A stretch of 34,634 bases of DNA, taken from an uncultured Pelagibacteraceae bacterium. GTDB lineage: Bacteria > Pseudomonadota > Alphaproteobacteria > Pelagibacterales > Pelagibacteraceae. A program made the position numbers and the translations under genes. Positions within the stretch are counted from its first letter, which is position 1. Each line of letters begins with the position of its first letter. Positions 5,368 through 31,766 of the stretch are shown piece after piece. The notes beneath the pieces are model-generated. The model ran no database searches and was not told the origin of the DNA. It saw only the letters and a list, made by a program, of their open reading frames with translations. Location of the stretch: positions 1-34,634 of the forward strand of contig CACJED010000010.1 in assembly GCA_902592285.1 (NCBI GenBank). Reading direction: 5' to 3'.

Positions 5368-8300
5368 ATGACTAAAAAATTATTAGTTCCTGACATTGGT
5401 GATTTCGAAAATGTTGAAGTAATAGAACTACTTGTTAAAGAAGGACAAGAGATTAAACAAAACGATCCAGTTGTTACAATAGAAAGTGATAAGTCAAGTG
5501 TCGAAATACCATCCACATTTTCAGGAAAAATAGATTCTATTTTAGTAAAAGTTGGAGATAAAGTTTCCAAAGGAGATTTGCTTCTTGAAATAACTAGTTC
5601 TACGCAGGCAACTCAATCATTACAAGATGTGCCAAAAAAAACTGAAAATTTAATTCAAGAGGCTGAAAATTCTTTGAAAAAAATTAAAGAAAAAAAAATT
5701 GTAATTCAAAATATTAAAAAAGAAAAACCAGAATTAATTCAAGTTACAAATGAAGGTGATATTGATCCTTTGGAAACAAATGAATGGCTAGAATCTCTTT
5801 CAGAAGTTATAGAAAAAGATGGTAATCAGAGAGCTCACTATTTGATAAAAGAATTAATTAATAAAGCTTATATGGAAGGAGCTAATATTCCATATACACA
5901 AAATACTCCATATATAAACACTATCCCAGTAAATGAAGAAAAAAAATCAAATGGTGATCAAAATATTGAGAGGAGAATCAGATCATTAATAAGATGGAAT
6001 GCTGCGGCGATGGTAGTAAGAGCAAATAAGAAATTTCCTGAACTTGGAGGTCATATAGGAACATTTGCATCTGCGGCTACTCTTTATGATGTTGGAATGA
6101 ATCATTTTTGGAGAGCAAAAAATAATAAGTTCGGAGGTGATTTAATTTATTTTCAAGGCCATAGTGCACCTGGCATGTATGCTAGAGCTTTCTTAGAAGG
6201 TCGATTAAATGAAAAGCAATTAGATAGTTTTAGACAAGAGGTTAATCCGGGCGGCTTGTCTTCTTACCCACATCCATGGTTAATGCCAAAATTTTGGCAA
6301 TTTCCAACAGTGTCTATGGGTTTAGGCCCAATGTTAGCGATCTATCAAGCAAGATATATGAAGTATTTAATTAATAGAGGTTTAATTAAAGATGAAGGTA
6401 GAAAAGTTTGGGCTTTTTTAGGAGATGGAGAAATGGATGAGCCAGAATCTTTAGGTGCTATTGGTTTAGCAGCAAGAGAAAAATTAGATAATTTAATATT
6501 TGTTGTGAATTGCAATCTTCAAAGATTGGATGGACCTGTTCGAGGTAATGGAAAAATTATTCAAGAGTTAGAGGGAATTTTTAGAGGGGCAGGATGGAAT
6601 GTTATTAAGGTCATTTGGGGTTCATATTGGGATCCATTATTAGCAAATGATAAAACAGGTCATTTAGTAAAAACGATGAACGAGACTGTTGATGGTGAGT
6701 ACCAAGCAATGAAAGCAAGAGACGGCGCCTATGTAAGAGAAAAATTTTTCGGTAAATACCCAGAGACTAAAGATTTAGTTTCAAGTCTATCTGATAAAGA
6801 TATTTGGAGATTAAACAGAGGGGGGCATGATCCTCATAAAGTTTTTGCAGCCTACGACAAAGCGTCAAAAAATATTGGAAGTCCTACGGTTGTAATTGCA
6901 AAAACAATTAAAGGCTATGGAATGGGCAAGAGCGGAGAAAGTGTTAACACTACACACCAAACTAAAAAATTAGATATAGATGATTTAATGTATTACAGAG
7001 ATAGATTTGATGTGCCTCTTACAGATCAACAGGTAAAAAACATAGAATATTATAAACCAGATCAAAATTCTCAAGAAATAAAGTACCTTAAAGAAAGAAG
7101 ACTTCAATTAGGTGGATTCATTCCAGAGAGAACCACCTACGCAAAACCAATTAAAGCTCCACCAAAAGATATCTTTGATAACATGAAAGAGTCTACAGGC
7201 ATAAAAGAAATGTCCACTACAATGGCTTTAGTTCGAATGCTTACGAACCTTTTAAGAGATAAGAATGTTGCTCCAAGATTGGTACCAATTATTCCTGATG
7301 AGGCTAGAACTTTTGGCATGGAAGGTTTCTTTCAAAAAATTGGTATTTATGCTCATGAGGGACAGAAATATGAGCCTGAAGACTCTGCGCAATTAAGCTC
7401 GTATAGAGAAGATAAAAGCGGACAAGTTTTGGAGGAAGGAATTAATGAGGCTGGCGCAATGTCTTCTTGGATTGCAGCGGGAACTTCTTATACAAATCAT
7501 GATATTGAGATGATACCTATTTATCTTTTTTACTCGATGTTTGGTTTTCAAAGAATAGGAGATTTTGCATGGGCGGGTGCAGATAGTCAGTCTAGAGGAT
7601 TTTTGATTGGTGCAACAGCTGGTAGAACAACTTTAGCAGGAGAGGGTCTACAGCACCAAGATGGTCATAGTCATCTTATGGCTTCAACTATTCCCAACTG
7701 TGTATCATATGATCCTACATTTCATTATGAATTAGCAGTTATTTTTAGACATGGATTAAAAAGGATGCATGAAAAAAAAGAGAATATTTTCTTCTACATT
7801 ACAACTATGAACGAAAATTATCCTCATCCAGCTATGCCTAAAGATAGATCTTGTGAAGAAGGGATCTTAAAAGGTATGTATAAAATAAAAGAATTTAATA
7901 AATACAAAAAAACTAAAATTCAATTTTTGGGATCAGGCACAATTTTAAGAGAAATGATTGCAGGTGCCGAAATATTACAAAAAGAATATCAAATAGATAG
8001 TGAAATTTGGAGCGTAACAAGTTTTAATGAGTTAAGAAGGGATGGGCTAGAAGTAGAAAGATATAATCTTTTAAATCCAGACAAGGAACCAAAGAAGTCT
8101 TATGTTGAAAATTGTTTGGGCAAAACGGAGGGACCTATTTTAGCTGCCTCAGATTACATGAGAATGAATTCAGATCAAATTAGACCTTATGTTAATAAAA
8201 GTTTTTACTCACTAGGAACAGATGGCTTTGGACGAAGTGACACTAGAAAAAATTTAAGAAATTTTTTTGAAGTTGACAAAGAGCATGTTGTTACCTACGG

Positions 8301-8406
8301 ATTAAGTGTATTAGCTAAAGAACAGCTAATAGCATCCAAGCACGCTAGAGAGGCAATCAAAAAATACAAAATAGATATTAATAAACCAATGCCAACAAAA
8401 TTATAA
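5368..8406 (+). CDS. aceE: Pyruvate dehydrogenase E1 component, homodimeric AceE type, with N-terminal lipoyl domain
   Basis: 1012 aa. Residues ~1-77 are a lipoyl domain (TIESDKSSVEIPS, lipoyl Lys42); the AceE body starts ~residue 130 (IDPLETNEWLESL...RRIRSLIRWNAAAMVVRAN...GHSAPGMYARAFLEGRL...GDGEMDEPESLGA...NCNLQRLDGPVRGNGK). Confidence 0.95.
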   Translation: MTKKLLVPDIGDFENVEVIELLVKEGQEIKQNDPVVTIESDKSSVEIPSTFSGKIDSILVKVGDKVSKGDLLLEITSSTQATQSLQDVPKKTENLIQEAENSLKKIKEKKIVIQNIKKEKPELIQVTNEGDIDPLETNEWLESLSEVIEKDGNQRAHYLIKELINKAYMEGANIPYTQNTPYINTIPVNEEKKSNGDQNIERRIRSLIRWNAAAMVVRANKKFPELGGHIGTFASAATLYDVGMNHFWRAKNNKFGGDLIYFQGHSAPGMYARAFLEGRLNEKQLDSFRQEVNPGGLSSYPHPWLMPKFWQFPTVSMGLGPMLAIYQARYMKYLINRGLIKDEGRKVWAFLGDGEMDEPESLGAIGLAAREKLDNLIFVVNCNLQRLDGPVRGNGKIIQELEGIFRGAGWNVIKVIWGSYWDPLLANDKTGHLVKTMNETVDGEYQAMKARDGAYVREKFFGKYPETKDLVSSLSDKDIWRLNRGGHDPHKVFAAYDKASKNIGSPTVVIAKTIKGYGMGKSGESVNTTHQTKKLDIDDLMYYRDRFDVPLTDQQVKNIEYYKPDQNSQEIKYLKERRLQLGGFIPERTTYAKPIKAPPKDIFDNMKESTGIKEMSTTMALVRMLTNLLRDKNVAPRLVPIIPDEARTFGMEGFFQKIGIYAHEGQKYEPEDSAQLSSYREDKSGQVLEEGINEAGAMSSWIAAGTSYTNHDIEMIPIYLFYSMFGFQRIGDFAWAGADSQSRGFLIGATAGRTTLAGEGLQHQDGHSHLMASTIPNCVSYDPTFHYELAVIFRHGLKRMHEKKENIFFYITTMNENYPHPAMPKDRSCEEGILKGMYKIKEFNKYKKTKIQFLGSGTILREMIAGAEILQKEYQIDSEIWSVTSFNELRRDGLEVERYNLLNPDKEPKKSYVENCLGKTEGPILAASDYMRMNSDQIRPYVNKSFYSLGTDGFGRSDTRKNLRNFFEVDKEHVVTYGLSVLAKEQLIASKHAREAIKKYKIDINKPMPTKL

Positions 8407-9665
8407 TGTCAGAAATTGAAATTAAAGTACCTAATATCGGAGATTTCAAAGGTGTGGAGGTAATTGAGGTTTTAGTTTCTGAGGGCCAAACTCTAAAAAA
8501 AAATGATCCTTTAATAACAATAGAGAGTGACAAATCTAGCGTAGAAATTCCTTCAAATTTTGAGGGTAAAATCAAAACTTTAAAAACAAAGGTGGGAGAT
8601 AAAGTTTCAGAGGGTGACTTAATTTTAATTTTAGAAAATACTAATGAAACACAAGAAAGAGTTATAAAAAAACCAGTAATTGAAAAAGAGATTAAAAAAA
8701 CTCAAGAAATAAAACCAGAGACTCAAAAAATATCAACTAACCAAAATAAAGTTTTTAATATATCGTCAGCAAGTCCAAAGGTTCGAAAATTTGCAAGAGA
8801 ACTTGGAGTAGATATTAACCAAGTTGCAGGCAGTGAACGCAAAGGTAGAGTTGTTGAGAGAGATATCAAATTATATGTGGCTTCGAAATCTAATAACCAA
8901 GTCAATAATGAGAATAAAAATAATGAAAAGATAAAACAAGAATACTCTCACTCTGAATTTGGAGAAGTAGAAATAAAAGATATACCGAGAGTTAAAAAAT
9001 TATCATCAAAATACTTAATGAATTCTTGGACAACTATTCCTCATGTTACAAATCATGATGAAGCAGATATAACTGAAATGGAAAATTTTAGAAATTCTCT
9101 TACAGACATTTATTCTGGAGAAAAAGTTAAAATTACACCTTTGGCTTTTATAATTAAAGCTTTAGTGGCGTCTTTGAAAAAATTTCCAAATTTTAATTCA
9201 TCTATTGACCAATTAGAAACTGGAAAAATGACTTTGAAAAAATATTATCATATTGGAATAGCAGTTGATACACCAAATGGTTTAATGGTTCCTAAAATAA
9301 GAAATGCAAATAACAAAAAGATTTCTTTAATTAGTAAAGAACTTAAAGAAGTAAGTGAACTTTGTAGAAATTTAAAAATTGATAAAAAAGAATTATTCGG
9401 TGGATCTATGACAATAACTAGTCTTGGGGGGATTGGAGGATCATTTTTTACTCCAATAATTAATTATCCTGAAGTAGCTATATTGGGTGTTGGACGCTCC
9501 CAAAAAAAAAATGTTTTTTTTAACGGTAAATTTCAAGTAAGAACAATGTTGCCAATTTCATTATCTTATGATCATAGAATTATTGATGGTGCTGAGGCAG
9601 CTAGATTTAATAATGATATTAAAGAAAATTTAGGTAAAAACTTTGCATATAAATTAGCAGTTTAA
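8406..9665 (+). CDS. aceF: Dihydrolipoyllysine-residue acetyltransferase (PDH E2)
   Basis: 419 aa; one N-terminal lipoyl domain (TIESDKSSVEIPS), peripheral subunit-binding domain (ASPKVRKFARELGVDINQVAGSERKGRVVERDI), catalytic domain ending LSYDHRIIDGAEAARF; start overlaps the aceE stop by 1 nt. Confidence 0.95.
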   Translation: MSEIEIKVPNIGDFKGVEVIEVLVSEGQTLKKNDPLITIESDKSSVEIPSNFEGKIKTLKTKVGDKVSEGDLILILENTNETQERVIKKPVIEKEIKKTQEIKPETQKISTNQNKVFNISSASPKVRKFARELGVDINQVAGSERKGRVVERDIKLYVASKSNNQVNNENKNNEKIKQEYSHSEFGEVEIKDIPRVKKLSSKYLMNSWTTIPHVTNHDEADITEMENFRNSLTDIYSGEKVKITPLAFIIKALVASLKKFPNFNSSIDQLETGKMTLKKYYHIGIAVDTPNGLMVPKIRNANNKKISLISKELKEVSELCRNLKIDKKELFGGSMTITSLGGIGGSFFTPIINYPEVAILGVGRSQKKNVFFNGKFQVRTMLPISLSYDHRIIDGAEAARFNNDIKENLGKNFAYKLAV

Positions 9666-30741: not shown

Positions 30742-30831
30742 GGAGAGGTGGCCGAGCGGTTTAAGGCGCACGCTTGGAAAGCGTGTAAAGGGTTTTCTCT
30801 TTCATGGGTTCGAATCCCATTCTCTCCGCCA
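30742..30831 (+). tRNA. tRNA-Ser (anticodon GGA)
   Basis: GGAGAGG...TCTCTCC acceptor with discriminator G and encoded CCA; anticodon stem CACGC/GCGTG with loop TTGGAAA; long variable arm; T-loop GGGTTCGAATCCC. Confidence 0.97.
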
Positions 30832-30872
30832 AATTTAATTTTTTTAAAGAAACTATTCAGTATAATAAACAA

Positions 30873-31766
30873 ATGTTAAATATAAATGACTATAGCTCAG
30901 TTACAATAGTAATAGTATTATATAAAGAGTCTTTTGATTTAGTAAATAAAACACTTCAAACTCTTAAAAATTACAAAATTGTTATAATCGATAATGCCAA
31001 TAATAATGAATTAAAAAAAAAAATTTTAAAAAATTTTAAAATTTACAAATATTTATTAAATAAAAAAAACAACGGATTTTCAGCCGGTTATAATCAAGGA
31101 ATAAAATTAAGCACTACAAAGTTTACATTGGTTTTAGGACCAGATTGTTTAATAACAAACAAAGATATTTATGTTTTGACTAAAAAACTTTCTTTTTATG
31201 AAAATACTATAATGATAACCCCAACTGCTTATAGTCAACAAAATGAACCGACATATTCTGGTGGACCACTTCCAGAAAATGGTAAAAAAGATAAAGTTTT
31301 AAATTTAGAGGGAGATGTATGTGTTGAAAGTGCTTTAGGTGCATGTATGTTATTTAAAACAGATGATTTTAAAATGAATGATTTATTATTTGATGAAAAT
31401 TTTTTTTTATATTTTTCAGATGATGACTTATGTAGAAAAATTAAATCAATCAATAAATCTATTGTACAAACTAAAGATGCAATTTGTATTCATCAGCATG
31501 GTATTATCAAAGTAAAAAGTAGATTTATGAAAATATATATTAGAGAATTTAATTTTACCCATGATATGTTGTACTACTTTTATAAAACTAAAACTGAAAA
31601 ATCTTTAGAGATTATCAGAAAATTTCAAAAAAAAAGCAAAAGACATTACTTTTTATTATTTTTTAGATTATTAACATTCAGATTTTCAGATGTTGTTAAA
31701 ATTTATTCAAGATTATCAGCATTTAATAAGTTTAAATCAAAATATTTAAATAGAACTGTTAGATAA
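30873..31766 (+). CDS. GT2-family glycosyltransferase
   Basis: VTIVIVLYKESFDLVNKTLQTL, IIDNANNNE, NNGFSAGYNQGIKLS, LVLGPDCLI, FFLYFSDDDLCRKI. The ORF-track start (30804) lies inside tRNA-Ser; the in-frame ATG at 30873 is the likely start. Confidence 0.9.
   Translation: MLNINDYSSVTIVIVLYKESFDLVNKTLQTLKNYKIVIIDNANNNELKKKILKNFKIYKYLLNKKNNGFSAGYNQGIKLSTTKFTLVLGPDCLITNKDIYVLTKKLSFYENTIMITPTAYSQQNEPTYSGGPLPENGKKDKVLNLEGDVCVESALGACMLFKTDDFKMNDLLFDENFFLYFSDDDLCRKIKSINKSIVQTKDAICIHQHGIIKVKSRFMKIYIREFNFTHDMLYYFYKTKTEKSLEIIRKFQKKSKRHYFLLFFRLLTFRFSDVVKIYSRLSAFNKFKSKYLNRTVR

Follow-up and report, generated by a model that had tools for sequence, protein, structure and literature searches.

In textbook descriptions of the pyruvate dehydrogenase (PDH) complex the swinging arm belongs to the E2 core, and both active-site coupling and the architecture of the complex are explained from that arrangement. 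The locus described here raises the question of whether the arm can be borne by E1. It lies in a 34,634-nucleotide stretch of SAR11 (Pelagibacteraceae) DNA, the whole of which we call the window, on contig C10 of a genome of 882 kb that is 70% complete; the closest named relatives, single-cell genomes and MAGs of uncultured Pelagibacteraceae, have AceEs 93-72% identical to that of the window. An open reading frame on the forward strand (5368..8406, ATG start) encodes a 1012-residue AceE-type E1, and a preliminary description of this DNA had proposed that the protein bears its own N-terminal lipoyl domain. The reading frame, Pfam and the NCBIfam aceE model TIGR00759 agree on that architecture and on an E1 that is not of the PdhB type. 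The lipoyl domain occupies residues 1-77 (5368..5598; domain proper 3-77): Biotin_lipoyl (PF00364) matches residues 5-75 with an E-value of 2.1e-19 and 69.5 bits against a cut-off of 22.1, and the domain scores 75 bits in a genome-wide search. The AceE-type homodimeric E1 body, residues 129-1012 plus the stop (5752..8406), reaches 1426.9 bits with TIGR00759 (cut-off 859.9) over residues 129-1010 and model positions 3-883 of 885; AceE-type Pfam domains begin at residue 203 and continue downstream. The PdhB model NF008854 falls below its cut-off on this protein (20.7 versus 454 bits) and matches the lipoyl part only. Because the family names cover the E1 body alone, the arm on AceE is hidden by annotation.

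Structure prediction bears out the domain assignment. AlphaFold2 folds the N-terminal block (pLDDT 72-87) as an all-beta domain with strands at residues 2-6, 16-21, 34-39, 44-48, 53-58 and 71-76, and places Lys42 in the turn joining strands 34-39 and 44-48; the model is a partner-free monomer and carries no information on arm reach. The best Foldseek matches of the E1 are to E. coli E1p (4qoy/1l8a; probability 1.00, TMt 0.90-0.94), and a PDB search found no chain that holds a lipoyl domain and an E1 body together. The lysine codons named earlier as the lipoyl sites, Lys42 of E1 (5491..5493, in ESDKSSVE) and Lys43 of the neighbouring AceF (8532-8534), are correct. Lysine occupies this position in 122 of 122 SAR11 E1-borne lipoyl domains, second copies included, and in all 122 its context is DK (ESDKSS), not the MK of biotin domains. 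The charged linker of about 50 residues, also described before, joins the domain to the E1 body as residues 78-128 (5599..5751), with pLDDT 34-52 and a helix at 90-113. It contains a short motif, VPKKTENLIQEAENS (5629..5673), of the pattern P..TE.[IL]I..AE, which is carried by 56 of 72 representative SAR11 E1s and is absent (lost) from clades g5 and g7. This pattern persists within an otherwise fast-evolving linker, and it is possibly a docking helix. An in-frame stop lies three codons upstream of the E1 start, the next in-frame ATG is at residue 169, within the conserved AceE body, and no structured RNA upstream of aceE was found at Rfam gathering thresholds.

The downstream gene, whose start shares one base with the E1 stop, encodes an AceF-type E2 of 419 residues (8406..9665, forward strand) with a lipoyl domain (8415..8633; PF00364, E 2.3e-18), a peripheral subunit-binding domain (8769..8867; PF02817, E 2.6e-12) and an acetyltransferase catalytic domain with DHRIIDG (8973..9632; PF00198, E 5.5e-77). 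Since it misses the cut-offs of the long-form AceF models (TIGR01348, 417.8 versus 552.1; NF008814, 403.9 versus 722), we regard it as a single-lipoyl short E2. One SucA-SucB-Lpd cluster encodes the sole good E3 of the genome, and an AccB-like protein is also present. No PdhB-type E1 was found in the window genome (NF008854 gave no match at 1e-60), and a PF00676 match on contig C24, considered as an E1-alpha, was rejected as 1-deoxyxylulose-5-phosphate synthase. LipA is encoded in seven of seven and LipB in six of seven genomes checked, the window genome among them; G004, 96% complete, gave no LipB match.

A survey of domain architecture across SAR11 genomes indicates that the fusion is family-wide and no oddity of a single genome. 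AceE was matched in 218 of 247 Pelagibacteraceae genomes, and 97 of the 102 good ones carry the window type, with all 14 sampled genera represented. The full-length matches listed span, essentially throughout, query residues 1-8 to 1010-1012. Among the fetched SAR11 loci the lipoyl domain is found on every E1 frame whose N-terminus is present and intact, and the frames that lack it are contig-end truncations and broken genes. Outside SAR11, 0 of 43 E1 loci (gamma- and betaproteobacteria, Acidobacteriota and others) have the domain. Six non-SAR11 AceEs in a class survey of 385 genomes begin at query residue 118-132; in a phylum survey of 399 genomes, 161 with AceE, no non-SAR11 match listed covers the lipoyl domain, the earliest starting at query residue 71 and running through stops. 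Non-SAR11 matches that seemed to span query residues 2-1012 were rejected, their lipoyl part being that of the downstream AceF. The sister family gave weak lipoyl- or transketolase-level matches only.

Several other arrangements were seen in these surveys. In sister family f2 (G037 and others) AceE was not found, nor, with few exceptions, was a PdhB-type E1; G037, 100% complete, has four biotin/lipoyl-type matches, none joined to AceE. Four genomes of one genus (G156, G212, G236 and G009; 92-97% complete) gave no AceE or AceF match at the thresholds used, and in G156 an E1-beta-like frame is interrupted by an internal stop (L162). In G032 (L033) stops or frameshifts break aceE up into three frames. 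Some SAR11 genomes hold a lipoyl-less second AceE-like paralogue, 51-53% identical to the window E1 (L232:5922-8612, minus strand; L034; also G011, G013, G018 and G027), which scores about equally to aceE and "AKGDH_not_PDH" and in G069 adjoins TRAP transporter genes (DctP, DctM).

Purifying selection on the E1 lipoyl domain is strong. Between close pairs the domain has a dN/dS of 0.072, against 0.074 for the E2 lipoyl domain, 0.021 for the E1 body and 0.118 for the remainder of E2; the linkers of both subunits are relaxed (0.38 in E1, 0.51 in E2). The lysine is missing only where E2 has a second lipoyl domain, in g8 and g15. In these second AceF domains (L216, L217, L225 and L226) the position is occupied by E, E, N and N; read from sequence, each is a decaying, in effect dead, arm. 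Two tandem N-terminal lipoyl domains were observed on E1s of g12 (L152, L153) and g15 (L224, L226).

The preliminary description had suggested swinging arms on both E1 and E2, which is what the window genome encodes but is one state of several in the family. Counted on E1 and E2 in 115 distinct SAR11 aceEF pairs, lipoyl domains number 1/1 (74 pairs), 1/0 (35), 1/2 (3), 2/1 (2) and 2/2 (1), and E2 thus has no lipoyl domain at all in 35 of 115. These E2 frames are 296-329 residues long, with an ATG just upstream of the subunit-binding domain, and they open right after, or overlapping, the E1 stop; the eight scanned with Pfam contain E3_binding (PF02817) and 2-oxoacid_dh (PF00198) alone. By frame length, among the genomes listed, all E2s of g6, g9, g13, g14 and g16 are without the domain, it is mixed in g1, g5 and g7, and it is kept in g8, g10, g12, g15 and g17. 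A tree built from the E1 body and the E2 core requires at least eight changes of state, with seven independent pairs on well-supported branches. A count of changes does not by itself separate gain from loss, and we favor loss of the E2 domain as the simpler course. A genome-wide search found exactly three Biotin_lipoyl domains in each of 12 genomes with a lipoyl-less E2 (G004, G111, G142, G152, G164, G222, G224, G248, G258, G270, G278 and G298; 92-99% complete), carried by AceE, a frame of about 440 residues and a frame of about 140 residues. Five of the longer frames were read, and all five are SucB by curated cut-off; one of the shorter frames, read in G111 and taken as AccB, carries the biotin motif EAMKTM and matches no NCBIfam model. 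Among the matches listed, each of the 12 genomes has one AceF match. With AceE, SucB and AccB as the three carriers, E1 appears to have the sole PDH lipoyl domain of these genomes.

Altogether the sequences make it highly probable that SAR11 has a functional PDH complex with a swinging arm borne by E1, for which we infer lipoylation and the order of the arm's visits. In this model LipB and LipA would octanoylate and lipoylate Lys42 of E1, on a domain that would hang off the N-terminus of the AceE dimer by a flexible linker of 50-60 residues. An E1 active site, acting in cis or in trans, would reductively acetylate this E1-borne domain, the arm would swing to the catalytic trimer of AceF, where the acetyl group would be passed to CoA, and E3, presumably the single Lpd encoded with SucAB and held by the subunit-binding domain of AceF, would re-oxidise it. 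In the window genome the E1 arm would share this work with that of AceF; in many relatives the complex would have no lipoyl domain other than that of E1. We further consider it likely, with somewhat less assurance, that several SAR11 lineages have an armless E2 core and carry out all acyl transfer by arms on peripheral AceE dimers, so that the number and reach of the arms would be set by E1 occupancy and not by the core, and that lineages arrived at this state repeatedly, the E1 lipoyl domain having arisen earlier, in the ancestor of the family.

Where E2 has no lipoyl domain, PDH could instead borrow that of SucB in a mixed PDH-ODH complex, the E1 domain serving only for docking or regulation. 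In its favor, every SucB read has kept its lipoyl domain, only one good E3 is encoded in the window genome, and sharing has a precedent in the opposite direction, with the OdhA of Corynebacterium relying on lipoyl groups carried by AceF (PMC7568260). The E1 lipoyl lysine is invariant, however, and the domain that carries it is strongly selected. In addition, cognate PDH lipoyl domains are in general the preferred substrates of E1p enzymes, and we consider borrowing from SucB improbable. Slightly less probable again is a structural or regulatory role for the E1 domain, as an assembly tether or a plug of the active site and not as a working arm. The conserved linker motif hints at docking, and lipoylation is deduced from the sequence; a plug, however, would have no need of a lysine in every one of 122 domains, the domain is the sole PDH lipoyl domain in many genomes, and the degenerate, lysine-less domains of the SAR11 family are found on E2 only.

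The two remaining alternatives to a working arm on E1 concern the gene models, and we regard both as very improbable. Most of the genomes are draft MAGs or SAGs, and the broken aceE of G032 illustrates how assembly or frameshift artefacts could mimic a lipoyl-less E2. Against this, the 35 loci are distinct and come from many independent genomes, the position of the E2 ATG against the E1 stop leaves no space for a domain, and its absence clusters by clade, extending, by frame length, to every listed genome of the five genera named above. Translation of E1 from a start beyond the lipoyl domain, a caveat of the preliminary description for which a start predicted from sequence and the in-frame GTG (residue 88) and TTG (residues 71 and 103) codons leave room, is contradicted by the lipoyl region being in the same frame and conserved family-wide at a dN/dS of 0.07.

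How did an arm come to reside on AceE? In a tree rooted on AceF lipoyl domains from other bacteria, and with the lysine-less second E2 domains excluded, the lipoyl domains of SAR11 E1 fall together with the first lipoyl domains of SAR11 E2 in a single clade (support 98/86), indicating that the E1 domain arose by copying inside the SAR11 lineage. This upholds the common origin with the AceF domain implied by an earlier proposal of local duplication from aceF, but neither a recent date nor the direction. The two domains of the window had been called near-duplicates, which is too strong: 49 of 81 residues are identical, with 63% identity in DNA and 38% at third codon positions, and the duplication must be old. 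Across the family the copies group by subunit, which together with the third-position identity places the split between E1 and E2 copies before the family's radiation and rejects a recent duplication from aceF. In the best tree the E2 domains are nested within a paraphyletic E1 set, but in AU tests monophyly is rejected neither for the E2 domains (p 0.44) nor for the E1 domains (p 0.29), and we therefore claim no direction. The second E1 lipoyl domain of g12 groups with the lipoyl domain of its own genome's AceF and is, on this placement, the sole apparent recent E2-to-E1 copy. We also considered whether the E1 linker has lengthened to compensate for a lost E2 arm. Its median is 97.5 residues with a lipoyl-less E2 versus 89 residues otherwise, a strong raw difference that is non-significant after tree pairing (five longer, two equal, one shorter), and the idea was rejected.

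Lipoyl domains outside E2 are not without precedent. A passage in PMC7873978 places them on E1-beta of Zymomonas and on E3 of Neisseria and Alcaligenes/Ralstonia; its text gives the Zymomonas subunit as alpha, and the title of the work cited there gives E1-beta. The same passage, citing Matic 2003, places the PDH lipoyl domain of Mycoplasma hyopneumoniae on E3 (PdhD). The SAR11 arrangement resembles the PdhB of Zymomonas mobilis and other alphaproteobacteria in having a lipoyl domain at the N-terminus of an E1 subunit in a complex whose E2 is lipoylated too, but the carrier is the homodimeric AceE, not a heterotetrameric E1 of another family, and the SAR11 E2 may be without a lipoyl domain of its own. 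Like the M. hyopneumoniae complex it has a lipoyl domain shifted from E2 to another subunit, although there the arm is on E3 and the E1 is of a different type. Neisseria meningitidis and Ralstonia (Alcaligenes) eutropha similarly have an extra non-E2 lipoyl domain in an AceE-type complex, but on E3, with E2 retaining its own. Lipoyl-domain proteins of E3-like length also lie downstream of aceEF in the beta- and gammaproteobacterial loci analysed here. The SAR11 E1 body is 55% identical to that of E. coli in the structural alignment (AceE-AceF; 1l8a, 4qoy, 7b9k), and operon order and the lipoyl, subunit-binding and catalytic domain types are shared; E. coli AceE, however, has no lipoyl domain and its AceF has three (PMC8421416). 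Finally, Corynebacterium OdhA, an E1o-E2o fusion, is likewise a 2-oxoacid dehydrogenase with an acyltransferase that has no lipoyl domain of its own, but it borrows that of AceF in trans (PMC7568260), whereas in SAR11 the E1 encoded in the same operon carries the arm. Given the new carrier, its presence across a whole family and the repeated absence of the E2 domain, we see the SAR11 case as a variation on a known theme of arms moving between subunits. Papers on SAR11 mention aceEF and additional copies of aceE but not the lipoyl domain (PMC10030771), and, in line with the suggestion that the fusion is undescribed, the open-licence literature searched yielded no description of a lipoyl-AceE, a SAR11 PDH with an E1 arm or an E1 lipoyl fusion, though this is a weak absence.

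The step concerned, from pyruvate to acetyl-CoA, is central to metabolism, and SAR11 is among the most abundant groups of marine organisms. Within this one family there is a natural series of arrangements, in which the arm is present on both subunits, doubled on E1, accompanied on E2 by a second arm that is dead, or confined to E1, with many independent transitions between them. Such a series allows one to test directly whether tethering of the arm to the core is required.

A minor observation concerns another part of the window, where a tRNA gene (30742-30828, forward strand) overlaps the listed start of a glycosyltransferase reading frame (30804-31766, forward strand), whose true start probably lies downstream of the listed one.
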